Assembly: GCF_000507245.1 (NCBI RefSeq)
Contig: NC_023035.1
Coordinates: 1,067,001-1,131,000 of the forward strand
Length of the DNA stretch: 64,000 bases
Direction: 5' to 3'
From: Salinispira pacifica
GTDB lineage: Bacteria > Spirochaetota > Spirochaetia > DSM-27196 > Salinispiraceae
In this document: piece after piece, positions 13,138-26,703 of the stretch
How the letters are laid out: every line of letters starts with the position of its first letter
Position numbering within the stretch: the stretch's first letter is position 1
Notes under the pieces: model-generated
Database searches by the model: none
What the model was told of the DNA's origin: nothing
Seen by the model: only the letters and a program-made list of their open reading frames with translations
Position numbers and translations under genes: made by a program

Positions 13138-13160
13138 TATAATCTCCATTGGAGAACGGT

Positions 13161-14396
13161 ATGAGTAACAGATCACATCCCCTGCTTCAAATCCGGTCGG
13201 AAATTGATCCTCTGAAGACCATTCTGCTTCACCGTCCCAGCAGGGAGCTGGAGCAGCTGATCCCCAAGTATCTGGATGAAATGCTTTTTGAGGATATTCC
13301 CTACCTGGAGCAAATGCAGAAGGAACACGATGAATTCGCCCTGCAGCTCACAAGCAGAGGCATCGAAGTGCTCTACTTCGAGAATCTGCTGAAAGAAACC
13401 CTGGCCCAGCAGGATGCCCGGGTACAGATCGTCAATACGGTAATTGATGAGCTGCACGTGAACTCCGCATCATTAAAAGAAGATATCCGCCAGCTCCTGC
13501 TCTCCCGCTCCTCCGGGGAATTGGCCCAAACCCTGCTCGCAGGTCTGAGCAAGAATGAAGTTCCCCATTCCGCCGATGAAAAACGCCTATCGTTTTATAT
13601 TAAGGAAGGATTTCCCTTCTACCTGGACCCTCTGCCGAACCTCTATTTCTCCCGGGATTACGGCACGGTGATCGGAAACCGGCTTTCGGTGAACACCATG
13701 AAGGCCCGGGCCCGGAAACGGGAAAGTATGCTCCTTGAGCAGATCGCCAGATATCATCGCCGCTTCACCTCTGCCGGGGTGGATCTCTGGCATCATTATA
13801 ATGAAAAAGACAGCATAGAGGGCGGGGATATTCTCATTCTCAGCCCGGAAGTAATAGCCATCGGCTGCAGCGCCCGGACAAGTCCCGAGGGAATAGAAGA
13901 ACTGGCAGAGCGGATCTTTGAAAAAGATACAGGGTTCCGGGAAGTTCTGGTTCTTCAAATCCCCTTCGCCCGGGCATACATGCATCTGGATACGGTGTTC
14001 ACCATGGTTGACCGGGATAAATTCAGCATATTTCCGGGGATCGCCGAACACATCAAGGTGTTCTCCATTAAACCCGGTTCCAAGGGCGGGCTCAGCATCA
14101 TCCCCCGGGAAAACCTGAAAAAAACCCTGAGTGAAAGCCTGGGGCTCAGGGGCATACAGCTCATCGAGACCGGCGGCGGGGACCTGCTCACCGCCGAACG
14201 GGAACAGTGGAACGACGGAACCAACACCCTGGCGATTTCCCCGGGCTGTGTGGTCACCTACCGCCGGAATACCGTGTCCAACGACATCCTCAGGAAACAC
14301 AACATCGAGGTGGTGGAAATTCCAGGCTCGGAACTGGTGAGAGGGCGGGGCGGTCCCCGCTGCATGAGCATGCCCCTGTACCGGGAAACGGAATAG
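13161..14396 (+). CDS. arcA: Arginine deiminase
   Basis: Hydrolyses L-arginine to L-citrulline and ammonia in the cytosol, the first step of the arginine deiminase route. At 411 residues it has the family length. Visible motifs: SEIDPLKTILLHRPSREL at the N-terminus, IEGGDILIL, YMHLDTVFTMVD (catalytic His with adjacent Asp), and the C-terminal GRGGPRCMSMP loop with the nucleophilic Cys about 11 residues from the end. ATG 13161 is chosen over TTG 13149, as GGAG lies six bases upstream. Divergent from ortA; followed 172 bp later by the carbamoyltransferase gene. Confidence 0.95.
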   Translation: MSNRSHPLLQIRSEIDPLKTILLHRPSRELEQLIPKYLDEMLFEDIPYLEQMQKEHDEFALQLTSRGIEVLYFENLLKETLAQQDARVQIVNTVIDELHVNSASLKEDIRQLLLSRSSGELAQTLLAGLSKNEVPHSADEKRLSFYIKEGFPFYLDPLPNLYFSRDYGTVIGNRLSVNTMKARARKRESMLLEQIARYHRRFTSAGVDLWHHYNEKDSIEGGDILILSPEVIAIGCSARTSPEGIEELAERIFEKDTGFREVLVLQIPFARAYMHLDTVFTMVDRDKFSIFPGIAEHIKVFSIKPGSKGGLSIIPRENLKKTLSESLGLRGIQLIETGGGDLLTAEREQWNDGTNTLAISPGCVVTYRRNTVSNDILRKHNIEVVEIPGSELVRGRGGPRCMSMPLYRETE

Positions 14397-14568
14397 CCCG
14401 TTTTCTCCCTGTCCACCAGGGTAAAGACGGCCGTTTTTAAAGCAGTCTGTGATGATACATTCATAAAGTTCCGATAGAATATGGAACCGGGACCGGGAGT
14501 CCCGGATGAAAATACAGATATCAGATGCAATGCTCAGATATCAATTGAAACAGCCCGAAGGAGACAGC

Positions 14569-15564
14569 ATGCCGATCAATGTAAAAGGAAGACATTTCCT
14601 CACCCTCAAGGATTTCAGCCCAGCCGAAATAGAATACCTGCTTATGCTCAGCCGGGACCTGAAGAATAAAAAACGCTCAGGTATCCGGGGGAATCTGCTG
14701 GATGGAAAGAACATCGTCCTCCTTTTTGAAAAAACATCCACCCGCACCAGAGCGGCCTTTGAAACCGCCGCCTTCGATGAAGGGGGACGGGTAACCTTTC
14801 TCAGCAACAGCCAGATGGGGAAAAAGGAATCCATTGAAGATACCGCCAGAGTTCTTGGAAGATACTATGACGGCATAGAATTCCGGGGCTTCAAACAGGA
14901 AACCGTGGATGAACTGGCCCGATATGCGGGAGTACCGGTGTGGAACGGTCTTACTGATATGTATCATCCGACTCAGGTGCTGGCGGATCTTCTCACCATC
15001 CAGGAGCATTGCGAAAAGCCCCTGAACCAGGTGAAGTTTGTGTTCGTGGGGGACGCCCGGAACAACATGGGGAACAGCCTGATGATCGGAGCGGTGAAAA
15101 TGGGCATGCATTTCACCGCCGTTGCCCCTAAACAGCTCCACCCCCAGGAATCCCTGGTGGCGGAAATGAAGGAACTTGCAAAGGAAACCGGGGCAGTGAT
15201 CGAACTCACCGATGACGTACAAGCAGGGGTGAAGGATGCCGATGCAATTTATTCCGATGTATGGGTTTCCATGGGTGAAGAAGATCAGTTTGAAGAGCGC
15301 ATTAAACTTCTCAAGCCCTACCAGGTAAACATGGATATGATCAGGGGCACCGGAAACGATCAGGTGCTGTTCCTCCATTGCCTGCCCTCCTTCCACGATA
15401 CCAAAACTCAGATCGGTCAGGAGATTTACGAGAAATTCGGGCTGAAAGAGATGGAAGTGACCGATGAGGTGTTCCGAAGCAGGCACTCTGTGGTGTTCGA
15501 CGAGGCGGAAAACCGTCTTCACACCATTAAAGCGGTGATGGTGGCCACCATCGGGGACCTTTAA
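14569..15564 (+). CDS. arcB: Ornithine carbamoyltransferase (catabolic direction likely)
   Basis: Transcarbamylase converting citrulline + phosphate to ornithine + carbamoyl phosphate when it works in arginine breakdown. The carbamoyl-phosphate motif STRTRAAFE is near residue 57, followed by [24 protein letters not shown], and HCLPSFHD (ornithine-site Cys). The length is 331 residues. The start at 14569 is set by AGGAG five bases upstream; the frame extends to 14506 but that part has no family similarity. The direction of catalysis is inferred from arcA upstream and from arcC and the ornithine-fermentation genes in the window; the sequence does not distinguish ArcB from anabolic ArgF. Confidence 0.92.
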
Positions 15565-15884
15565 AACCAGAGCTTGCCCATACCCCCCGGGAGCCGGCGC
15601 CTGCACCCGGGATCTGCGCCTCCTGCCGGCCCTGCGCCCGGAATGGGCGCCCCCTGCCGGCTGGGGCGGCACATATGCGGGAGCGGTTTGAAACCACCCA
15701 TGCCCACAGATTCTCACGTATAATAAATTACTTTTATTACGTGATGCTTTTTCCGGAGTGAGGCTGATGTTCGAACTTCCGCAATTTGTTCGCCGGGGTG
15801 CGGTGGGGTGGGGTCATCAGCTGGGTCGTAGATGAGATTTTGAAATGACAGGTTCAGGAGATAGTAATGATAACGCTATATCTA
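15565..15884. other. Intergenic region between arcB and the CRISPR array
   Basis: 320 bp without a convincing gene. The first part is GC-rich with imperfect repeats of a CCTGCGCCCGG-like unit (15598-15665). At 15714-15744 there is an AT-rich inverted repeat, TCACGTATAATAAA against TTTATTACGTGA, with one bulged base. It could be an operator or a weak terminator. No T-run makes a standard terminator for arcB. The last 40 bp before the first repeat are AT-richer but have no obvious leader motif. Confidence 0.5.
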
Positions 15885-17877
15885 ATAGTGGCTTGAATCA
15901 GATCTTTGAAATGGTAGAATCCGACCGGCGGCGCTTAGACGGGTTGCCTGTTGTGGCTTGAATCAGATCTTTGAAATGGTAGAATTCTCGAAAGTGGGTC
16001 ATTCCCAAAGAGTCTGTTGTGGCTTGAATCAGATCTTTGAAATGGTAGAATTTATAGTACAGATCAATTTGCAGATCTTGTGTTGTGGCTTGAATCAGAT
16101 CTTTGAAATGGTAGAATCGGTGTTGACATCATGCGATGGGTGTTTGTGTTGTGGCTTGAATCAGATCTTTGAAATGGTAGAATTGTTGTTATAGCTAATG
16201 ATTCTTATAGTGGGTTGTGGCTTGAATCAGATCTTTGAAATGGTAGAATCTGTGCTGAAAAGAATTAAATCTATTAGTCGTTGTGGCTTAAATCAGATCT
16301 TTGAAATGGTAGAATTATGCTTCAGGTCCATGCTCAGGCCGTACTGTTGTGGCTTGAATCAGATCTTTGAAATGGTAGAATATCCCATTCTAAAAGAGGA
16401 AAGTCATGATTGTTGTGGCTTGAATCAGATCTTTGAAATGGTAGAATCGTCAGCGATATCATAACCAGGAGTGAGTGGTTGTGGCTTGAATCAGATCTTT
16501 GAAATGGTAGAATGCGCATCAGCCCGTCCTTCCCCGGTCTTGAGTTGTGGCTTGAATCAGATCTTTGAAATGGTAGAATTTTTAGGAGGACACAATCAAC
16601 TGGCGGATAGTTGTGGCTTGAATCAGATCTTTGAAATGGTAGAATGCGTTTTATTGAAAGTGGGACACCTATCCCGTTGTGGCTTGAATCAGATCTTTGA
16701 AATGGTAGAATGCAGAAAACATCGTATCGTCGCTTTCGGTTGTTGTGGCTTGAATCAGATCTTTGAAATGGTAGAATTTTCAACGGTATTCACTATGTCC
16801 ACCACTTGTTGTGGCTTGAATCAGATCTTTGAAATGGTAGAATGAAACAGAAATTTTTTACTTTCTGATGGGTGTTGTGGCTTGAATCAGATCTTTGAAA
16901 TGGTAGAATCAGCATTGATATATCATAAATAATGTCAGTGTTGTGGCTTGAATCAGATCTTTGAAATGGTAGAATATAACCGAAGCAGACATAAATCGGT
17001 TGGCCGTTGTGGCTTGAATCAGATCTTTGAAATGGTAGAATATATTCTTCGTACCAGCTGTTCAGCATTTCGTTGTGGCTTGAATCAGATCTTTGAAATG
17101 GTAGAATCCGACCCGAACGACCAGGGAAACAACTTGAGTTGTGGCTTGAATCAGATCTTTGAAATGGTAGAATCATAACCTCCTCTTTGCTGTAAAGGCC
17201 AGAGTTGTGGCTTGAATCAGATCTTTGAAATGGTAGAATCGGCTTCGTTTCGGCTTTCTCCGGTCTCAAGTTGTGGCTTGAATCAGATCTTTGAAATGGT
17301 AGAATAATCGGATTCAGCCCTTAAGCTGCGGCGGAGTTGTGGCTTGAATCAGATCTTTGAAATGGTAGAATTGGACACCGCCGGTGATATTCTCGTAGAT
17401 AGTTGTGGCTTGAATCAGATCTTTGAAATGGTAGAATTGTCAATATCTATCCCTATTTGCTTCGGGTGTTGTGGCTTGAATCAGATCTTTGAAATGGTAG
17501 AATAGAGTGGATAGAAATTAAACAGCCCTGCCGGTTGTGGCTTGAATCAGATCTTTGAAATGGTAGAATTCAGCCGGGGCGCATCCGGTCAGAGGGGCAG
17601 TTGTGGCTTGAATCAGATCTTTGAAATGGTAGAATGATAGACGAATTAAAGAAGCCAGGGCGGTAGTTGTGGCTTGAATCAGATCTTTGAAATGGTAGAA
17701 TGCTCCATTAGCTTATTAGCAGACCACAGCGGTTGTGGCTTGAATCAGATCTTTGAAATGGTAGAATTGACATCACACGATATAAGGTTTCCCGTTGGTT
17801 GTGGCTTGAATCAGATCTTTGAAATGGTAGAATTGGGGTTATTATTTTCATAAACCCTGTTGAGTTGTGGCTTGAAT
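15885..17877 (+). CRISPR. CRISPR array, first segment (30 full repeats plus the 5' part of repeat 31)
   Basis: Direct repeats of 36 bp starting GTTGTGGCTTGAATC and ending GAAATGGTAGAAT, with 30-bp spacers (29 bp for the first); repeat starts run 15950, 16016 and so on at a strict 66-bp period to 17798. The first copy (15885) has substitutions at repeat positions 1 and 3, and the copy at 16280 has G to A at position 11; the others read identical. The ends (GTTGTGG.../...AAT) match the layout of Neisseria-type II-C repeats, which sets the crRNA sense to the plus strand. Repeat 31 is cut after 14 bases by the IS66 element. Confidence 0.98.
17870..17877. repeat. IS66 target-site duplication, left copy
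   Basis: GCTTGAAT, identical to 20232-20239. These eight bases are part of the CRISPR repeat itself. Eight-bp duplications are characteristic of IS66-family transposition. Confidence 0.92.
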
Positions 17878-17948
17878 GTAACCGTCAATTTACCAGGCCC
17901 TGCACAACCTGAGCTTTAGATGGAATAATTCTTCCACATGGAGGAATT

Positions 17949-18251
17949 ATGGATAAAAAAGTAGAGAAATGGAAGGCTATCACCGATCAATGGCGGGAAA
18001 GTGGACAAACCCAAAAGGAGTTCTGCCGAAATCACGAAATCAAGCTTTCAACGCTACATTACTGGATGAAGCGGGTTAAGAATTCCATGACCAGTGAATC
18101 TCCAAATCGGGATCTGGTCCACATTGAACCGAAGGGGCGCATGGCTTCTTCCAATGATATAGTAATAGAGATTGATCGAAGGTTTCGCATCATGGTGCCG
18201 GATAGAATCTCCTCCGAACGTCTGCAAGCAGTTTTGGCGGCATTCCGGTGA
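17949..18251 (+). CDS. tnpA: IS66 accessory protein TnpA
   Basis: Protein of 100 residues with an N-terminal helix-turn-helix of the IS66 TnpA/orfA type: WRESGQTQKEFCRNHEIKLSTLHYWMKR. It is a small accessory protein needed with TnpB for IS66 transposition; its precise role is not settled. The stop overlaps the tnpB GTG start by 4 bp. Only 71 bp separate it from the left end. Confidence 0.92.
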   Translation: MDKKVEKWKAITDQWRESGQTQKEFCRNHEIKLSTLHYWMKRVKNSMTSESPNRDLVHIEPKGRMASSNDIVIEIDRRFRIMVPDRISSERLQAVLAAFR

Positions 18252-18595
18252 TTCCTGATCTGTCCCAACTGGATATTTATGTCCGTCCAGGTGTTACTGA
18301 TATGCGCAAGCAGGTGAACGGTTTATCGGAAATTGTCGAGCAGAAGATGAACCACTTGGCCATGTCTGGATCCTTGTTTCTGTTCTGCAATCGGAACCGG
18401 AGATTACTCAAATGTATCTGGTGGGACCGCAACGGGTTCTGTCTGTGGCTCAAGCGGTTGGAAAAAGACCGCTTTCCCTGGCCGGACACCGAGGAACAGG
18501 CAAAGCAGATCACCACAGCCCAACTACAGATGATTCTGGACGGCATTGATTTTTGGCACGCCCATAAGGCAATTGAGTATGTCGAATGTAACTGA
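18248..18595 (+). CDS. tnpB: IS66 accessory protein TnpB
   Basis: Protein of 115 residues matching IS66 Orf2/TnpB. It shows VRPGVTDMRKQVNGLS, LFLFCNRNRRLLKCIWWDRNGFCLWLKRLE and a C-terminal DGIDFWHAHK. The GTG start overlaps tnpA, so the pair is translationally coupled. Full family length, with no frameshift. Confidence 0.93.
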   Translation: MIPDLSQLDIYVRPGVTDMRKQVNGLSEIVEQKMNHLAMSGSLFLFCNRNRRLLKCIWWDRNGFCLWLKRLEKDRFPWPDTEEQAKQITTAQLQMILDGIDFWHAHKAIEYVECN

Positions 18596-18638
18596 AATGA
18601 CTTCCCTCAACTGCTGAGTCCATGCTAGAATTTAGATC

Positions 18639-20219
18639 ATGTTGAGCGCAGCGGAGATTGAACAGTTACCAGACGCAGTCAAGACCCATATAACCGCACT
18701 GGACTCCCGACTTGCTGAGCGCGAACTAGAAATCGAAGACCTTCAGGAACAACTTAAACTGGCCCGGTTTCGAAAGTTCGCCCGCACCAGCGAGTCCGCT
18801 TCTGACCTACTGCAGACGATGCTGTTTGAAGAGTCGCAGGTCGCCTCGACACCGGCAGATGATACGGATGCCACAGACACAGTTACAACAGTCACGTCTC
18901 ATACCCGAAAGAAACGGGGGCGAAAACCATTATCCGATGACCTACCGAGGGTCGATGTCATCCACGACATCCCGGAAGACGAGAAGCACTGTGGATGCGG
19001 TCATGAGCTCTCCAAAATCGACGAAGAAGTCAGTGAAAAACTGAAAACCATCCCCGAACAGTTTTTCGTCGAACGGCATATACGGCCCAAATATGCCTGC
19101 CGTAAATGTGAAGGTTCCGGGGACGAAGACAAACCGGTGTTCCGTATTGCTCCGGTTCCTCCGTCCATCATCCCTAAGAGTATTGTCACCCCGGAGCTTC
19201 TGGCATTCATTATTCAGAACAAGTTTGTCGATCATCTACCCTTTTACCGGCAGGAAAAGCGCTTTGAACGGGTTGGAGCGAGAATCAGCCGGCAGGATAT
19301 GTCAAATTGGCAACAGAAAGCGTACGAGCTACTGAAACCCTTTAAAACCCTCATGAAAGCGCAGATTCTGTCCGGATCGGTCGTTCAGATGGATGAAACC
19401 ACCGTCCAGGTCATGAATGAAGAGGAAAAATCCAATACCAGTAAATCGTATATGTGGCTCGCAAGAGGAGGCCCGCCTGATAAAAAGGTGGTGGATTATG
19501 AATATCACCGAAGCCGCGGGTCAGACTATGCAAAAAATTACCTCAAAGAATTCTCAGGCTACTTACAAACCGACGGGTATGTTGGATACGAAACAGCTCT
19601 CAAGAACCGGAACGATATCGTACATGTTGGCTGTATGGCTCATATTCGCCGGAAATTCTTCGAAGCAGGCAAGTCATCAAAGAAAGCCGGAAGCGCTCAT
19701 GAGGCGGTTTCGAAAATCGCCAAGTTTTACCGTATAGAGAAAGAACTGCGTAGCCTTGATCTGTTAGATGAAGAATTTATCTCTGAACGCAAGGCACGAA
19801 TTGCACCGGTAGCCAAAGATTTCAAAGCATGGCTCGACAAGAAAGCCCTGAGCATTCGCCCCACCAGTGCCACTGGTCAGGCAGTAAGTTATGCGCTCTC
19901 GCAGTGGGACAAGATCATGAAATATCTCGAACATCCTCAGCTCACCCCGGACAACAACAGTTCGGAAAATGCTATTCGTCCTTTTGTGCTTGGACGCAAG
20001 AACTGGCTATTCAGCGGGAGCCCACAGGGGGCAGAATCCTCCTGTTTCATGTTCTCGCTCATCGAGACTGCCAGACAGAATGGTTTGAACCCCTACGGCT
20101 ATCTGGTTCATGTATTCACCCGTGCACCAGAGATTGCCCTTTCTGGAAAATGGGAAGAATTACTGCCCTGGAACATTAAGGACGAACTCTTGGAAATGAA
20201 GTCGATTTTACAGGCTTAA
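18639..20219 (+). CDS. tnpC: IS66 transposase TnpC (DDE)
   Basis: Transposase of 526 residues. An N-terminal coiled coil (ALDSRLAERELEIEDLQEQL) leads to an RKFARTSES region. A zinc-binding stretch follows with CGCGHELSKI and YACRKCEG. The catalytic core has Asp in VQMDETTVQV (about 250), Asp in LQTDGYVGYE (about 310) and Glu in NNSSENAIRPF (about 441). The family C-terminus (GRKNWLFSGSPQGAESS) is present. It ends 12 bp before the right end of the element and is intact. Confidence 0.96.
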   Translation: MLSAAEIEQLPDAVKTHITALDSRLAERELEIEDLQEQLKLARFRKFARTSESASDLLQTMLFEESQVASTPADDTDATDTVTTVTSHTRKKRGRKPLSDDLPRVDVIHDIPEDEKHCGCGHELSKIDEEVSEKLKTIPEQFFVERHIRPKYACRKCEGSGDEDKPVFRIAPVPPSIIPKSIVTPELLAFIIQNKFVDHLPFYRQEKRFERVGARISRQDMSNWQQKAYELLKPFKTLMKAQILSGSVVQMDETTVQVMNEEEKSNTSKSYMWLARGGPPDKKVVDYEYHRSRGSDYAKNYLKEFSGYLQTDGYVGYETALKNRNDIVHVGCMAHIRRKFFEAGKSSKKAGSAHEAVSKIAKFYRIEKELRSLDLLDEEFISERKARIAPVAKDFKAWLDKKALSIRPTSATGQAVSYALSQWDKIMKYLEHPQLTPDNNSSENAIRPFVLGRKNWLFSGSPQGAESSCFMFSLIETARQNGLNPYGYLVHVFTRAPEIALSGKWEELLPWNIKDELLEMKSILQA

Positions 20220-20231
20220 ATTTACGCTTAC

Positions 20232-20239
20232 GCTTGAAT
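20232..20239. repeat. IS66 target-site duplication, right copy
   Basis: GCTTGAAT, matching 17870-17877. It restores the 30-nt 3' portion of CRISPR repeat 31, including its -35-like and -10-like elements. Confidence 0.92.
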
Positions 20240-20853
20240 CAGATCTTTGAAATGGTAGAATCTCTACTTGCCATCTGTCAATCATTTCTTTGTTGTGGCT
20301 TGAATCAGATCTTTGAAATGGTAGAATAAATCTGGTGAAAAAAGTAGCCGGAAAGGAGTTGTGGCTTGAATCAGATCTTTGAAATGGTAGAATGCGGAGG
20401 TAATAGTTATTAAGACCCAGATAGTTGTGGCTTGAATCAGATCTTTGAAATGGTAGAATTTTTGGAAAGTATTCATAAATAGAGTCTTCGTTGTGGCTTG
20501 AATCAGATCTTTGAAATGGTAGAATCAGGAATCAGTAAACCCATGTCTCCGGTACGTTGTGGCTTGAATCAGATCTTTGAAATGGTAGAATAAGGGGGAA
20601 ATTTATGCCGATTAATGTTAAGTTGTGGCTTGAATCAGATCTTTGAAATGGTAGAATCCTTGCCGTTGACGGAAGCACGACGACACGTTGTGGCTTGAAT
20701 CAGATCTTTGAAATGGTAGAATTAATTATAATGATTATATAGGTGGTCCTAGTTGTGGCTTGAATCAGATCTTTGAAATGGTAGAATTTGGCTTTTTGAA
20801 AGGTTCCCCGGCCTTGCGTTGTGGCTTGAATCAGATCTTTGAAATGGTAGAAT
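20232..20853 (+). CRISPR. CRISPR array, second segment (3' part of repeat 31 plus repeats 32-40)
   Basis: Continuation of the array after IS66. The 3' part of repeat 31 ends at 20261. Full repeats start at 20292, 20358, 20424, 20490, 20556, 20622, 20687, 20752 and 20818. Spacers are 30 bp, except two of 29. All nine full repeats match the consensus, including the last one (20818-20853), so no terminal degeneration is seen at this cas-proximal end. Total for the locus is 40 repeats and 39 spacers. Confidence 0.97.
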
Positions 20854-20904
20854 ACATGGTTCGCAAACTACTTGGGCACAAAGAATTAAAGCTGATCCAT
20901 TTCA

Positions 20905-20956
20905 TTTTTTTTGGCAATTGCATTGAATTTTTATTAGTGTGATTGCCATTTTTTTT
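20905..20956. terminator. Bidirectional terminator between CRISPR array and cas2
   Basis: TGGCAAT (20912-20918) pairs with ATTGCCA (20942-20948) across a 23-base loop. T-runs lie on both outer sides (TTTTTTTT at 20949-20956 and 20906-20912). It could end array transcripts from the left and the cas9-cas1-cas2 transcript from the right. Confidence 0.6.
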
Positions 20957-20958
20957 CA

Positions 20959-21297
20959 TTAAAACATCTCCAATTGGGAAGGGGTTTGGGGCATGGACGT
21001 GGCTGCTTTCCCTGTAAAATTTTCGATAGCAGAGTACTGCTTATCGGTTAAACTAAAAATACTCACCTGCCCGGAGCCCGGCAACATTGCCGAAATACGA
21101 CTTTTATGAACTTCAACCGATTCATTGCTTGTGCAAGCTCTCATATATACAGAATACTGAAACATGGTGAATCCATCACGCAGCAAGTCTTTTCGAAAAT
21201 CACTGGCCACTTTCCGTTCCTGCTTTGTATTCGTGGGTAAATCAAAGAATACTACTATCCACATAATTCTATAGGCACTGATTGCCCCATGTCCCAT
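20959..21297 (-). CDS. cas2: CRISPR-associated endonuclease Cas2
   Basis: Cas2, 112 residues, scaffold of the Cas1-Cas2 spacer-integration complex. The ferredoxin-fold start WIVVFFDLPTNT carries the conserved Asp. Next come the R-K-D helix (FRKDLLRDGFTMFQYSVYMR) and the C-terminal GQVSIFSLTDKQY typical of type II Cas2. The start at 21297 lies two bases after the cas1 stop with AAGAAG upstream. It is the last gene of the cas9-cas1-cas2 operon. No csn2 or cas4 follows, which fits subtype II-C. Confidence 0.95.
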   Translation of the reverse strand: MGHGAISAYRIMWIVVFFDLPTNTKQERKVASDFRKDLLRDGFTMFQYSVYMRACTSNESVEVHKSRISAMLPGSGQVSIFSLTDKQYSAIENFTGKAATSMPQTPSQLEMF

Positions 21298-21299
21298 GG

Positions 21300-22202
21300 C
21301 TATAGCTTCTTGAATTTTGGAAACATCGGCTTCATTGTTTTGTCAGTGAAATGTCGTGCAATAGATGCCGTTGTCAGGCTCAGACCATTGCTTAAAGGAC
21401 GTTTCTTTTCAGGAAAATATACATCCCGGGTAAGGGCATTTAACATATCAGCTTTGTCCTCCTTTGTAAGATCAGCCTTATTCAATAATCGGTCCGGTGT
21501 AGTTGTTTGAAGTACTTGTGCATCTACGAATGGACGATAGGGTTCCATAATGTCATCAGCCAGTGCAAAACTGTTATATTGATTCCTATGGTGAATACCA
21601 ATAGTAGGAAGAAGTCCGGATCCGCTAAGCGAACGGGCTACTGCTGCCCGCAGAATTGCATAGCCATAATTCAGTTTTTTGTTAGCTAACAAGTCCCTGT
21701 TTGAACGCGTGTATCCCTCCGGCATCACAGTCTTCCAGTAGGATTTAGCAGCAACCGCTTCTCTATTGGTTGAATCATCGCTCTTTACCTCTTTGCTGCA
21801 TGCACGGAGTAGCTCTGGTATTTGAAGCTTGCTAAATTCAGCCACGGCTATCTGATTGCGGATTTTTCTCTCGACTATGTGTTTCCATAATGCCTTCTTT
21901 ACCGGTTGCTTTACTTCGATCTGTGATCGCTGTAATTCATGTTGAAGATGGTGTGAATCCAGGTTTAATACCATTCCGGTTGGCATGTGTTTACTATTGC
22001 AGTAGATGATAGCCGCATTATTTTCCAAAAGGGTTGCAACAAGTGATTGGGAGTATGCAATTTGTGGGTTATCCAGGACTAGGAAGCCGATATCTTCAAT
22101 GGGTGCTGAAGTGATCAGCTCATGGTCTGAAAATGCCTCAAGTTGATTATTGGCCTGCTTGAGGTATACAGGTTTGCTGAAGTAGAGGGTTCGTTTGATC
22201 AT
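21300..22202 (-). CDS. cas1: CRISPR-associated integrase Cas1
   Basis: Type II Cas1 of 300 residues that integrates new spacers with Cas2. The N-terminal beta domain begins MIKRTLYFSKP. Metal ligands are visible as Glu in NREAVAAKSYWKTV, His in GIHHRNQYNSFALADD, and the following Asp/Glu in DDIMEPYRPFVD. The ATG at 22202 overlaps the cas9 stop (ATGA), with GGAGG ten bases upstream inside cas9; the longer frame from 22262 lies wholly within cas9 coding DNA and is rejected. Intact. Confidence 0.96.
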   Translation of the reverse strand: MIKRTLYFSKPVYLKQANNQLEAFSDHELITSAPIEDIGFLVLDNPQIAYSQSLVATLLENNAAIIYCNSKHMPTGMVLNLDSHHLQHELQRSQIEVKQPVKKALWKHIVERKIRNQIAVAEFSKLQIPELLRACSKEVKSDDSTNREAVAAKSYWKTVMPEGYTRSNRDLLANKKLNYGYAILRAAVARSLSGSGLLPTIGIHHRNQYNSFALADDIMEPYRPFVDAQVLQTTTPDRLLNKADLTKEDKADMLNALTRDVYFPEKKRPLSNGLSLTTASIARHFTDKTMKPMFPKFKKL

Positions 22203-25200
22203 TCTAAATTCACCTCCCCGGTGGTGGCTACCTTGACTCTTAACGGATTTTGTTCCTTCCAAGCTTTGAAGCTTTGTATCCCGAGGTAGTACGGCTCAAA
22301 ATCTCGATCCAATGTGCTTTCTGTATGAAGGCGGAAGCAGTAATACATTGAAGACAACTTCTGTACCCGGTATAGATGCCGTGAGACAAGCTCCTGGGGA
22401 AGATCTCCCTGCAGCTGCTCATCACCTAATCCAAGCAAAAACGTATCGTTTATGTGAAGGGTGGTAATAATCTTACCGGGTTCCGGAAGCTGATAAACGC
22501 TTTTCCCAGCAAGTCTTGCCTGAACAGCATCCCAGAAAGTAACCGGGTGTTCTTTATAGTTGCCGTCTGAATCACGGTATATGATGAATGCGTAGTTATT
22601 GCGTGGGTTCACGTACTGGTTTATACCTGTATGCCATTGCACTGCATTACCCAGGTTCTCCCTGATTCTCACCTTCTTTATTGGATTTCCGGGCTTACCG
22701 GAGCTTGGCATTATAACCTGGTAATCATTACCCTTTGTAAACCATTCACCTTTTACTTTTTCTTTCTCATCAATGGAGTAACCATTTTCTTCGACGAACG
22801 TTCGAAGAATTTCATGTGTGCCAGCATCAGCAATTTTACTCAGAGAAGTCAAATCTGTTATTTGCTTTCGAACGTGGTATCCCGGTTCATCACTTCCCGG
22901 TATATAGTGCTTACCGTAAACAGTGTCCTTGTGCAGTTGACCCCGCACACTCATGCCTTGGGATACATATGTGCGTCCATTAAGTCTTGTGTTCTTTTTT
23001 ATTCTCTTGATTATTTCCCTATTTTGGCGATGAACCACCAGAATGCTGTTAATTGAATTTAATGCATCGGCTCGAAAGTTGTCCCAGGGTAACGGGAACT
23101 GTGGCTTAGGAGCGCTGTAGCGCTGTCTTTTCTTGATCTTTAAAAAATATCCGCTAAGTTCCCGCAACTGCCCCGTATTCAGTAGGGCTATTGTCAGAGC
23201 ATCTATGGCGTGATGTCGATGATCCATACGGTTTTTTCCGGGGTTAAATACAAGACTCCCGTCTTCCTGGAACACAAAACCGGAAAGGACATTTTTTCCC
23301 TTTCCGTTTTTAGGTTTTATGTTCTTTTTCGGATAAAAACGCATATCCCGTGGTTCACAGTTAGCTATAGCGAATGCGGGGCCGGATGGGGTTCCTTCAG
23401 GAGCATCCAAAGCTATTCTGAAATTGCTTTCCGCGGTAAATCTGTAGCTTTGGTCAATTTTACCCTTAATGAGGAACTGATGTTCCGCTATTGCAGGAGT
23501 AGGTGTAAACATCCGCACGACCTGAAGTATCTCCTGAAGGTCTAATGGGATAATCAAAGCAGATTTATTATCTTGAGGGGGGATATCGAACAGACACTTT
23601 CGTTTGTCGATAAAAGCTTCAACTTTTCCATCCCTATGCTTGGTTCGTTTAATCAATAGCTCATTTTTACCCGGCTTTTCCCCTCTCTTCTCCCAACGAA
23701 GTTCTCCATTCACGGGTATATTCACCCAATATGGGGCATTATCATCATATTCTCCAGGGGGAAGCATCAGTTTAACAGGCAAGGAATTCAACATGAGAGA
23801 TGGTGACTCGCGATCTTTTACCTGAGCACGGCCTTTCAGCCAGATGGATTTGGTATCTTGTGAGGGTAGTTTTGAGAATAAAGGGAGATATTTTTCAACT
23901 GATAATAGTGAGTAAACCATCCACCCGGGAGAATCGTATGTACGATGCTCTACACTTACTTCTCGTGTTTGGCTTTGCCCTGTAAATTTACGATCAACTT
24001 TGAATATGCCGTTTTTCATTTCTCCACTTATAAGGATATCAGATGCCCGTATCGCTGGAGGAGGGAGTTCCTGTTCGCTTAGTTCGATAATGACCCCGTC
24101 GTCATTCATTACCGCCCAATACATTCCTGCATTTCCTTCGAAATTGGTTTTGATTGGAGGTGATAGTATTGAGTTTAGCCCCCACATTCTTCTGACTTTT
24201 GCTGTCAAGCTGCCCGGGAAAACATAGACTTGATCACAAATTGTGGAAAGATAATCCCGTGCAGCCTTGCTGATGTAGCGAGTATCATTGAGCTGTCTCT
24301 GTAAAAATGCTTCTGGCTCGTAATCACGGGTGGATACAAATCGCTTTGCTTTTTCGTAAGGTAGAAGTGTAAAGGCTCTTGCCTTCACTACTTCCCAGTG
24401 ATCGGGATCAGATTTATAAAACTGGTACGGCGTTTTCTCTCCTTTTTTTCCATTTTCTTCGGCGATGCAAAGGGTTTTATTGCTCAGGCTGTCGTCCAGG
24501 GAAATACTATATGGGATTATGTGCTCTACTTGAACCTTGTTGTCGTTACCAAATACATCGGTTATAGCCAAGGATTGACCTGTGTAGGGGCATTGAACAC
24601 TTTGACCTTGAACGCTGTTCTGTATCTCCTTGTAAAGAATATACTTTTGGATATTTTCACGGCTGGGTGAAAGACCGAATTTTTGCAGTTCAATTTTTGC
24701 ATCGTTGTTTCGCTCTGCCCGCTGATTATTCTCCCAATGCATTCGTCTGCGCACATCTCTCGGGAGCTTCAATTCCCGGGCAAGTTCCACTTTGATTTTA
24801 CTGAATTGCTCTCCGTCAGGGAGATATTGCTCTACGAGAGTGTTAACGAGTGTTCGCAGTTCCTGCAATGCTTGCTGTACAATAGGGTTGCGAAGGTTTG
24901 GTAGTTCACTGAGATAGTAACGATTGTTCTGGACACTCATCTCCTGACTGTGATGGTACAACTTATACGTCTGATTCATGGAAATGTTGAATGTCTGCAT
25001 AACATATTCCCGAAGCGCATCAGTGAAACTTTGGTTCACATCCCGGTTATTTTTTTCTTTCAATTTGGAAACGTGTGAAATGATTTCATCAGCATTTGCA
25101 TCAAATGATTTTTCACCTATCACACGCCTGATTCCGGCAAATATTACTGCGTCATTGTAAAGCATCCCCATCTGAAGAAATGGATTGATATTTCGTACCG

Positions 25201-26575
25201 CCTTCAGAGAGAGTGAGCTGTAATCGGTGTTTATCTTGTATTTGTTAAGCTGCTCAATGGAAACATCAATGTTATAGCTTCTTTGAAACTTCTCTTTGAG
25301 TTTTTCGCTTTTATCGTAGAACACGAGATCGTTCCAGATAGAATGGAAAAGTTCCCAATCAATATTTTCAACGTTAGAAGTGTCCGTCACCTTGGAAATA
25401 AAGGCAGTTGTCGGGCTGCCGGGAACTTTATGATCATCTGCATAATTGAATTGCACTCCAGTTTTTTGAATCTTCTTTTTTAAATCGCTCATCTTAACTG
25501 CTTTATCTTTTGAGAGAAGAAGAATGATTACATCTTTGCGATCAGTCTCGTTTAGTTTTTCCCCCGCTCCGTACTCGATTTGATTGGCAAATTGCATAGC
25601 TCTGTAGTATTCAAACTCAGGGTGAGATATCTGGCATACTGACTTTCTTTTCTCGTAGCGGCATTTGCTCAGGAGATGCTTTTGCGATTTCAATGGTTTC
25701 TGGTAGAAAAGAATTCCTTTGTCTGGATTGCCAAGGTAATCCTTCAAGCTCACAGTTTGTTCGCGGCAGATAAAATCACCCTCGATTTCGAACGAAATTC
25801 CAGCCTTTTTATATGCTTGAAGCTTGCGCCTGTGTTCACTGCTCCCGGCTGGTCCGTAGTACCGCTTGTTTCTGCTATGTACAGTCTCATTTTCAAGTCC
25901 AAGCTTTCCTGCCTGACGTTCCCAAATTTTATTGAATTCGTCTACATACCAGTTGCGGAGGGTGTAACGCCCTCGTAATCGTTCATTGCCATCAGACTTA
26001 ATCCGGAGTGAATTCAAGTACTCACCAAGGGTTGCATATTGTTGAAGAAGATTTTTTGTCTCATCTACACCGACGGTGTCTTCATTCCCTTTGTATAGAG
26101 CACCATCTTCATTACTTTTACGTCCGGTTTTGAACCCCCTATGATGAATTATGTGATAGAGGATTCTTCCAAACTCGAACCGGGAAATGTCTTCATGCAA
26201 TGCCCTATCTCTCAACTCGTATGGATTTAGTTTTAACCAAGAATTAAATTCGGATGAGGATGGAAATTCTTGTTTCTTTCCTTTCCGGTATTTTGCATAA
26301 CTTTCAAGTTCATCTTTGCTCAAGGGACACATTTTGAAGTCTACGAGTGTTCTCAATAAGACTATTCGACGCTGCTTTCTCCTGAGTGTCTGTCTCCGAG
26401 CCTGGCGGGATAAACGGCGATCCTGGTTCTTATATGATTCCTTCCCGGTTCCAATATCCGTGGCAGCACCAGGGAAAACTCTCACTCCGGTCTTGATTAT
26501 GTTCTGTTGTTCTTCATCCACCAGCGCCCAACCAAGGGAGCTGCTACCTAAATCCAATCCAAGGGTGTAAGGCAT
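22199..26575 (-). CDS. cas9: CRISPR RNA-guided endonuclease Cas9 (large, II-C-like)
   Basis: Cas9 of 1,458 residues from ATG 26575, where AGAGG lies six bases upstream (the adjacent ATG at 26578 is possible). RuvC-I is YTLGLDLGSSSLGWA with the catalytic Asp at residue 8. The Arg-rich bridge helix is near 50-75 (RRLSRQARRQTLRRKQRR). RuvC-II is KVELARELKLPRD near 597. HNH is VQVEHIIPYSISLDDSLSNKTL near 680 (catalytic His and Asn). RuvC-III is HRHHAIDALTIAL near 1122. The C-terminal region has VRGQLHKDTVYG, as in II-C proteins. It is far longer than the 1,000-1,100 residues common in II-C but near the length of large Bacteroidota proteins. All nuclease residues are present. The gene is visibly AT-richer than its metabolic neighbours. 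Confidence 0.97.
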   Translation of the reverse strand: MPYTLGLDLGSSSLGWALVDEEQQNIIKTGVRVFPGAATDIGTGKESYKNQDRRLSRQARRQTLRRKQRRIVLLRTLVDFKMCPLSKDELESYAKYRKGKKQEFPSSSEFNSWLKLNPYELRDRALHEDISRFEFGRILYHIIHHRGFKTGRKSNEDGALYKGNEDTVGVDETKNLLQQYATLGEYLNSLRIKSDGNERLRGRYTLRNWYVDEFNKIWERQAGKLGLENETVHSRNKRYYGPAGSSEHRRKLQAYKKAGISFEIEGDFICREQTVSLKDYLGNPDKGILFYQKPLKSQKHLLSKCRYEKRKSVCQISHPEFEYYRAMQFANQIEYGAGEKLNETDRKDVIILLLSKDKAVKMSDLKKKIQKTGVQFNYADDHKVPGSPTTAFISKVTDTSNVENIDWELFHSIWNDLVFYDKSEKLKEKFQRSYNIDVSIEQLNKYKINTDYSSLSLKAVRNINPFLQMGMLYNDAVIFAGIRRVIGEKSFDANADEIISHVSKLKEKNNRDVNQSFTDALREYVMQTFNISMNQTYKLYHHSQEMSVQNNRYYLSELPNLRNPIVQQALQELRTLVNTLVEQYLPDGEQFSKIKVELARELKLPRDVRRRMHWENNQRAERNNDAKIELQKFGLSPSRENIQKYILYKEIQNSVQGQSVQCPYTGQSLAITDVFGNDNKVQVEHIIPYSISLDDSLSNKTLCIAEENGKKGEKTPYQFYKSDPDHWEVVKARAFTLLPYEKAKRFVSTRDYEPEAFLQRQLNDTRYISKAARDYLSTICDQVYVFPGSLTAKVRRMWGLNSILSPPIKTNFEGNAGMYWAVMNDDGVIIELSEQELPPPAIRASDILISGEMKNGIFKVDRKFTGQSQTREVSVEHRTYDSPGWMVYSLLSVEKYLPLFSKLPSQDTKSIWLKGRAQVKDRESPSLMLNSLPVKLMLPPGEYDDNAPYWVNIPVNGELRWEKRGEKPGKNELLIKRTKHRDGKVEAFIDKRKCLFDIPPQDNKSALIIPLDLQEILQVVRMFTPTPAIAEHQFLIKGKIDQSYRFTAESNFRIALDAPEGTPSGPAFAIANCEPRDMRFYPKKNIKPKNGKGKNVLSGFVFQEDGSLVFNPGKNRMDHRHHAIDALTIALLNTGQLRELSGYFLKIKKRQRYSAPKPQFPLPWDNFRADALNSINSILVVHRQNREIIKRIKKNTRLNGRTYVSQGMSVRGQLHKDTVYGKHYIPGSDEPGYHVRKQITDLTSLSKIADAGTHEILRTFVEENGYSIDEKEKVKGEWFTKGNDYQVIMPSSGKPGNPIKKVRIRENLGNAVQWHTGINQYVNPRNNYAFIIYRDSDGNYKEHPVTFWDAVQARLAGKSVYQLPEPGKIITTLHINDTFLLGLGDEQLQGDLPQELVSRHLYRVQKLSSMYYCFRLHTESTLDRDFEPYYLGIQSFKAWKEQNPLRVKVATTGEVNLE

Positions 26576-26591
26576 CATTTACCTCTCATAG

Positions 26592-26619
26592 TTGACAAAA
26601 TATCTAAATGTATTATAAT
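26592..26619 (+). promoter_or_regulatory. tracrRNA promoter
   Basis: TTGACA (26592-26597) and TATAAT (26614-26619) are separated by 16 bp, both perfect consensus, giving a start near 26626. The -10 lies in the palindrome ATTATAAT (26612-26619), so the minus strand also reads TATAAT (26617-26612) as a candidate cas9 -10. In that direction TGGAAA (26640-26635) would be a 4-of-6 -35 at 17 bp. Confidence 0.8.
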
Positions 26620-26625
26620 TCAAAT

Positions 26626-26703
26626 ATCTGATTCTTTCCACAATAAGGCTATACGCCGAAGTGCGGAAAGCACTATTGCCCTGCCTAGGCAGGGCGTTTT
26701 TTT
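26626..26703 (+). ncRNA. tracrRNA
   Basis: Trans-activating CRISPR RNA predicted from pairing. The plus strand at 26621-26644 is an anti-repeat, complementary to repeat positions 1-24: 1-7 pair (one G-U), 8-10 form a 3x3 internal loop, 11-19 pair, 20 mismatches and 21-24 pair. The probable transcription start (about 26626) trims the outermost five bases. Downstream follow AATAAGGC as in Neisseria-type tracrRNA, a small GGC/GCC hairpin, a hairpin AGTGC/GCACT (26660-26673), and terminator GCCCTGCC-TA-GGCAGGGC (26678-26695) with seven Ts. Divergent from cas9. Ends are inferred. Confidence 0.88.
26678..26703 (+). terminator. Rho-independent terminator of tracrRNA
   Basis: Perfect 8-bp stem GCCCTGCC/GGCAGGGC with a two-base TA loop, followed by G and TTTTTTT. 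It forms the 3' hairpin of the tracrRNA. The remaining 127 bp to the stop of the racemase gene (26704-26830) is AT-rich and holds no gene I can support. Confidence 0.85.

Follow-up and report, generated by a model that had tools for sequence, protein, structure and literature searches.

The window analysed here is a stretch of 64,000 nucleotides from the genome of Salinispira pacifica, itself a single 3.78-Mb contig, and it carries a CRISPR-Cas locus of type II. Contiguous on the minus strand are cas9 (22199-26578), encoding a protein of 1459 amino acids, a type II cas1 (21300-22262) and cas2 (20959-21297), with the array adjoining them. The cas1 reading frame opens at a TTG, and an ATG near 22202 is the more likely start. 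On the array side the locus borders on metabolic genes, and an arginine deiminase gene followed by one for ornithine carbamoyltransferase (13149-15564), a pair belonging to the arginine deiminase pathway, lies directly ahead of the array. Because neither csn2 nor cas4 adjoins the locus, it is assigned by gene content to type II-C. The Cas9 is very divergent, with a best identity within the class Spirochaetia of 33%, and a scan across phyla recovered only four distant relatives. In a tree built without named reference II-C sequences, it falls on the non-II-A side of a split with a support of 100, on a long, unresolved branch.

The array, in which 40 copies of a 36-nt repeat, GTTGTGGCTTGAATCAGATCTTTGAAATGGTAGAAT, alternate with 39 spacers 29-30 nt long, forms two blocks on the plus strand (15885-17833 and 20226-20853). 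The oldest part comprises 30 repeats, the first of which is mutated (ATAGTGG...), and is followed at 17834-17877 by one final spacer and a 14-nt stump (GTTGTGGCTTGAAT) of a repeat split by an IS66-family insertion element. This element occupies 2.35 kb of the plus strand (17878-20231), has generated an 8-bp target duplication (GCTTGAAT) and encodes on the same strand a TnpA-like protein (17949-18251), TnpB (18248-18595) and TnpC (18639-20219), the latter two confirmed by Pfam. The initial annotation of 15885-20853 makes no mention of it. The newest part holds 10 repeats and 9 spacers, and its first repeat is reconstituted at the edge of the element.

The two ends of the array are readily told apart. 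In the trailer, at the oldest end, a decayed repeat remnant lies in register with the array (15820-15854, plus strand; shuffle P = 0.012). The gap separating the array from the ornithine carbamoyltransferase gene also holds a weak, possible rho-independent terminator (15714-15752, plus strand), with a hairpin (TCACGTA...TACGTGA, then TGCTTTTT) that was not flagged by the terminator scan. The right end is intact and faces cas2 across an AT-rich (69%) leader (20854-20958, plus strand) containing a rho-independent terminator for array transcripts (20912-20948), which works on the plus strand only. Since the left end is old, as seen from its mutated first repeat and the decayed one beyond it, and the leader and its terminator lie to the right, the layout indicates that the array is transcribed toward the inferred site of spacer acquisition beside cas2. 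A protospacer search with all 39 spacers against phages, for the PAM and guide orientation, gave no match, nor did a search with the 3' ends of four spacers against viral contigs.

A tracrRNA is predicted on the plus strand at 26626-26703, consisting of an anti-repeat, a nexus hairpin, a second hairpin and a terminator, and is preceded by a promoter of the form TTGACA-16-TATAAT (26592-26619, plus strand). Its predicted co-fold with the plus-strand repeat comprises a 7-bp stem, a 3x3 loop and a 9-bp stem (-46.9 kcal/mol), and it is this pairing that identifies the plus strand as the crRNA strand. The stump ahead of the insertion element is predicted to pair only weakly with the tracrRNA (-11.8 versus -20.8 kcal/mol). 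An Rfam scan returned only a tRNA, with no tracrRNA or CRISPR family. In the tracrRNA region (26592-26643), similarity to the reversed repeat continues past the predicted start of the tracrRNA and into its own -10 box, as if the gene had been derived from an inverted copy of the repeat.

The 3' end of each repeat reads TGGTAGAAT; the corresponding end in Neisseria meningitidis is TGCTACAAT. The initial annotation had interpreted the repeat as a promoter, with TTGAAT at positions 9-14, TG at 28-29, TAGAAT at 31-36 and 16 bp between the two boxes. These positions and this spacing are borne out, the motif reading on the plus strand, as does the crRNA, and being complete in 39 of the 40 copies; the sole exception, the repeat at 16280, has TTAAAT in place of the -35. 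As the copies are identical, the 39 matches were counted as one sequence and one event, and their treatment as 39 independent matches was dropped. Among shuffled 36-mers of the same composition, a promoter of equal quality occurs in 1.3%, one that also has the TG in 0.15%, and only 0.02% have the TG together with a box placed precisely at the 3' terminus.

The two halves of this motif do not carry equal weight. TTGA at 9-12 falls within the stretch of the repeat that pairs with the tracrRNA and is missing or mis-spaced in many relatives (it is present in only 19 of 32 II-C repeats from Spirochaetia), so the extended -10 appears to be the real signal and the -35 half the weaker evidence. TTGAAT is indeed present where it had been described, but its use as a key signal was rejected on these grounds. 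A caveat applies to the -10 as well, in that so short a box could be mimicked by an A+T-rich repeat end. At spacer positions 6-7, the predicted start, purines are not enriched among the 39 spacers, and position 8 is a purine in 72% of them; spacer sequence is dictated by the invaders from which it comes.

Promoters of the host are sigma-70-like. A survey of upstream regions in a 400-kb sample of the same genome found 14 instances of TTGAC-N16-18-TAnnnT upstream of genes, compared with 0.8 in shuffles, and RpoD retains the stretches WWIRQAITR and VHMIE, known from E. coli to read the -10 and the extended -10 (TG), respectively.

For comparison, Cas9 loci of the class Spirochaetia were gathered and their arrays located. 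The II-C repeats were oriented by layout, with the 3' end toward cas2, and the II-A repeats by the cas strand; the box itself was never used for orientation, and three II-C arrays (L098, L103 and L116) were flipped post hoc, according to the similarity of their 5' GTTG to that of clade mates. Of the 32 distinct II-C repeats, 31 have a -10-like box in their 3' part, as do 2 of 21 II-A repeats (Fisher P 3e-11, ignoring shared ancestry, these relatives being non-independent samples); on the antisense strand it appears in 0 of 32. The repeat of L116, from the same order as the S. pacifica array, stands alone among the II-C repeats of the class in lacking a clear box (score 4.9). In one subclade (L072, L094, L097 and L098), the extended -10 lies 5 nt further in, at 23-31 (TGTTAAGAT, TGATATGAT), and because the box moves inward here, it is the box itself that is kept and not merely a fixed repeat end. 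Terminal repeats that have mutated mark the 5' end of II-C arrays and the 3' end of II-A arrays, in agreement with published work (PMC12080349). Together, these repeats show the putative promoter signal to be a property of subtype II-C that is absent from II-A. The orientation of the tracrRNA, the polarity of the array, the sigma-70-type promoters of the host and conservation among the II-C repeats of the class together lend good support to the promoter proposed in the initial annotation, on the crRNA strand, with the reservation that its -35 half is weak.

Three other explanations have to be weighed. A single promoter to the left of the oldest end could drive the whole array, with RNase III cleaving the long pre-crRNA in each repeat, which would make the likeness to a -10 irrelevant. 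This is the standard arrangement in type II-A, and two weak promoter-like sites (9/12, without TG) just ahead of the array, at 15840-15885, make an additional upstream start possible; no promoter exceeding the repeat's own was found between 15753 and the first repeat. Such an arrangement would, however, place the newest spacers furthest from their promoter and behind the insertion element, the possible terminator at 15714-15752 would stop read-through from the upstream gene, and the box has been kept in all but one of the II-C repeats of the class. We consider it unlikely that this is how the array is expressed. Somewhat less probable again is that the repeat end is conserved for integration by Cas1-Cas2 or for inverted-repeat symmetry and resembles a -10 by chance. 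Cas1-Cas2 does contact repeat ends, and type II repeats begin with GTT and can be symmetric, but terminal symmetry is low in II-C repeats, which have the box (3.0 of 8 positions), and high in II-A repeats, which do not (5.6 of 8), the reverse of what would be expected of an artefact. The inward shift of the box in one subclade also argues against this explanation, as do the repeats of Bacteroidota, described below, which carry a different element, TAnnTTTG, in its place. Minus-strand transcription from the leader, as in leader-driven arrays, is highly improbable even though the leader sits on the cas2 side, given that the tracrRNA pairs with plus-strand repeats, that no minus-strand promoter was found in the leader and that the leader terminator acts on the other strand.

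The explanation we favor, and consider very probable from the sequence evidence, is that each repeat of the S. pacifica array carries a small promoter from which the guide RNA of the following spacer is initiated, with the 3' end being made by tracrRNA and RNase III. The sigma-70 polymerase would start some 5-8 nt inside each spacer; a start 6-7 nt in, for which the initial annotation predicted guides of about 23-24 nt, is a reasonable inference by analogy with Campylobacter jejuni, where it is at position 5. The transcript would then cross the remainder of the spacer into the next repeat, where pairing with tracrRNA and cutting by RNase III would generate the 3' end of the crRNA. Transcription would proceed from the old end of the array to the leader next to cas2, the presumed site at which new spacers are added, and array transcripts would end at the leader terminator. 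With a promoter in every repeat, neither new spacers nor those beyond the IS66 element would need a distant promoter, and as the motif of the repeat flanking the element (20226) is intact, the insertion need not have silenced the nine newest spacers. To call such crRNA production processing-independent, as had been done at the outset, overstates the case: the tracrRNA, the good dual-RNA fold and an RNase III gene encoded in the genome point to normal 3' processing, and it is the 5' ends that may need none.

Repeat promoters in the II-C array of C. jejuni were established by primary-transcript mapping with dRNA-seq (Dugar et al. 2013, PMC3656092). That system shares with S. pacifica the cas9-cas1-cas2 genes, starts inside spacers and a 3' end made with tracrRNA and RNase III, although its starts have been shown by dRNA-seq, whereas those of S. 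pacifica are predicted only, and S. pacifica differs in its very distant Cas9 of 1459 amino acids and in the additional -35-like TTGAAT of its repeats. The II-C array of N. meningitidis (Zhang et al. 2013, cited in PMC7038990) has repeats that likewise begin with GTTGT and end in an extended -10, but the Cas9 belongs to another clade and the repeats are alike only at their ends. In Clostridium cellulolyticum, as in S. pacifica, the array is transcribed in the opposite direction to the cas genes, and the last nine nucleotides of the repeat resemble an extended -10; its guides are 23-26 nt (PMC7038990), and small RNA data exist for it. II-C arrays in general have a promoter in each repeat, with spacers added at the last repeat, a mutated first repeat and sometimes an upstream terminator (Feussner et al. 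2025, PMC12080349), features that the S. pacifica array fits, except that it is interrupted by IS66. Repeat-borne promoters have been treated as a II-C trait (PMC12080349, PMC12638026), and the signal is seen in dozens of spirochaete II-C arrays. The surprise expressed in the initial annotation at their wider use beyond Neisseria and Campylobacter is therefore misplaced; since they are already a general property of II-C (PMC3656092, PMC12080349, PMC7038990, PMC12638026), the S. pacifica array is a further example of it.

A different picture emerges from Bacteroidota, for which the II-C repeats, 44-48 nt long, were taken from loci of Bacteroidia (L019, L020 and L186-L225; n = 26). None of the 26 has a -10 box within its last 12 nt. 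Sixteen contain TAnnTTTG, the -7 element of promoters in this phylum (PMC10309648), usually at positions 23-30, against 0.4 expected from shuffles and none on the antisense strand. At most of these loci, tracrRNA pairing spans the repeat from position 2 to about 23-25, halting at the element, and a similar box can be seen by eye just upstream of many of the tracrRNAs. Some II-C repeats of spirochaetes, that of S. pacifica among them (18-25), likewise contain the string ATCTTTGA, and common descent may therefore explain part of the Bacteroidota pattern. A Flavobacterium study names only TTG as a repeat motif (PMC8092290), and within a limited literature search we found no paper that names TAnnTTTG in repeats. 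On balance, we lean slightly toward the idea that the II-C repeat promoter has been retuned to the RNA polymerase of its host, with a sigma-70 -10 in Spirochaetia and the Bacteroidota-specific -7 box TAnnTTTG at 23-30 in Bacteroidota, mostly outside the part paired with tracrRNA.

For S. pacifica, promoters within the repeats would account for the expression of both the newest spacers and those cut off by the insertion element, and with its array a very divergent lineage of Cas9 joins those II-C systems whose repeats appear to serve as promoters. Through the apparent sigma-matched swap in Bacteroidota, the idea of a repeat promoter can be put to the test, both phylogenetically and with reporters, and the swap would bear on the portability of these systems. 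If the retuning is real, the sigma specificity of the host would limit the horizontal transfer of II-C arrays.
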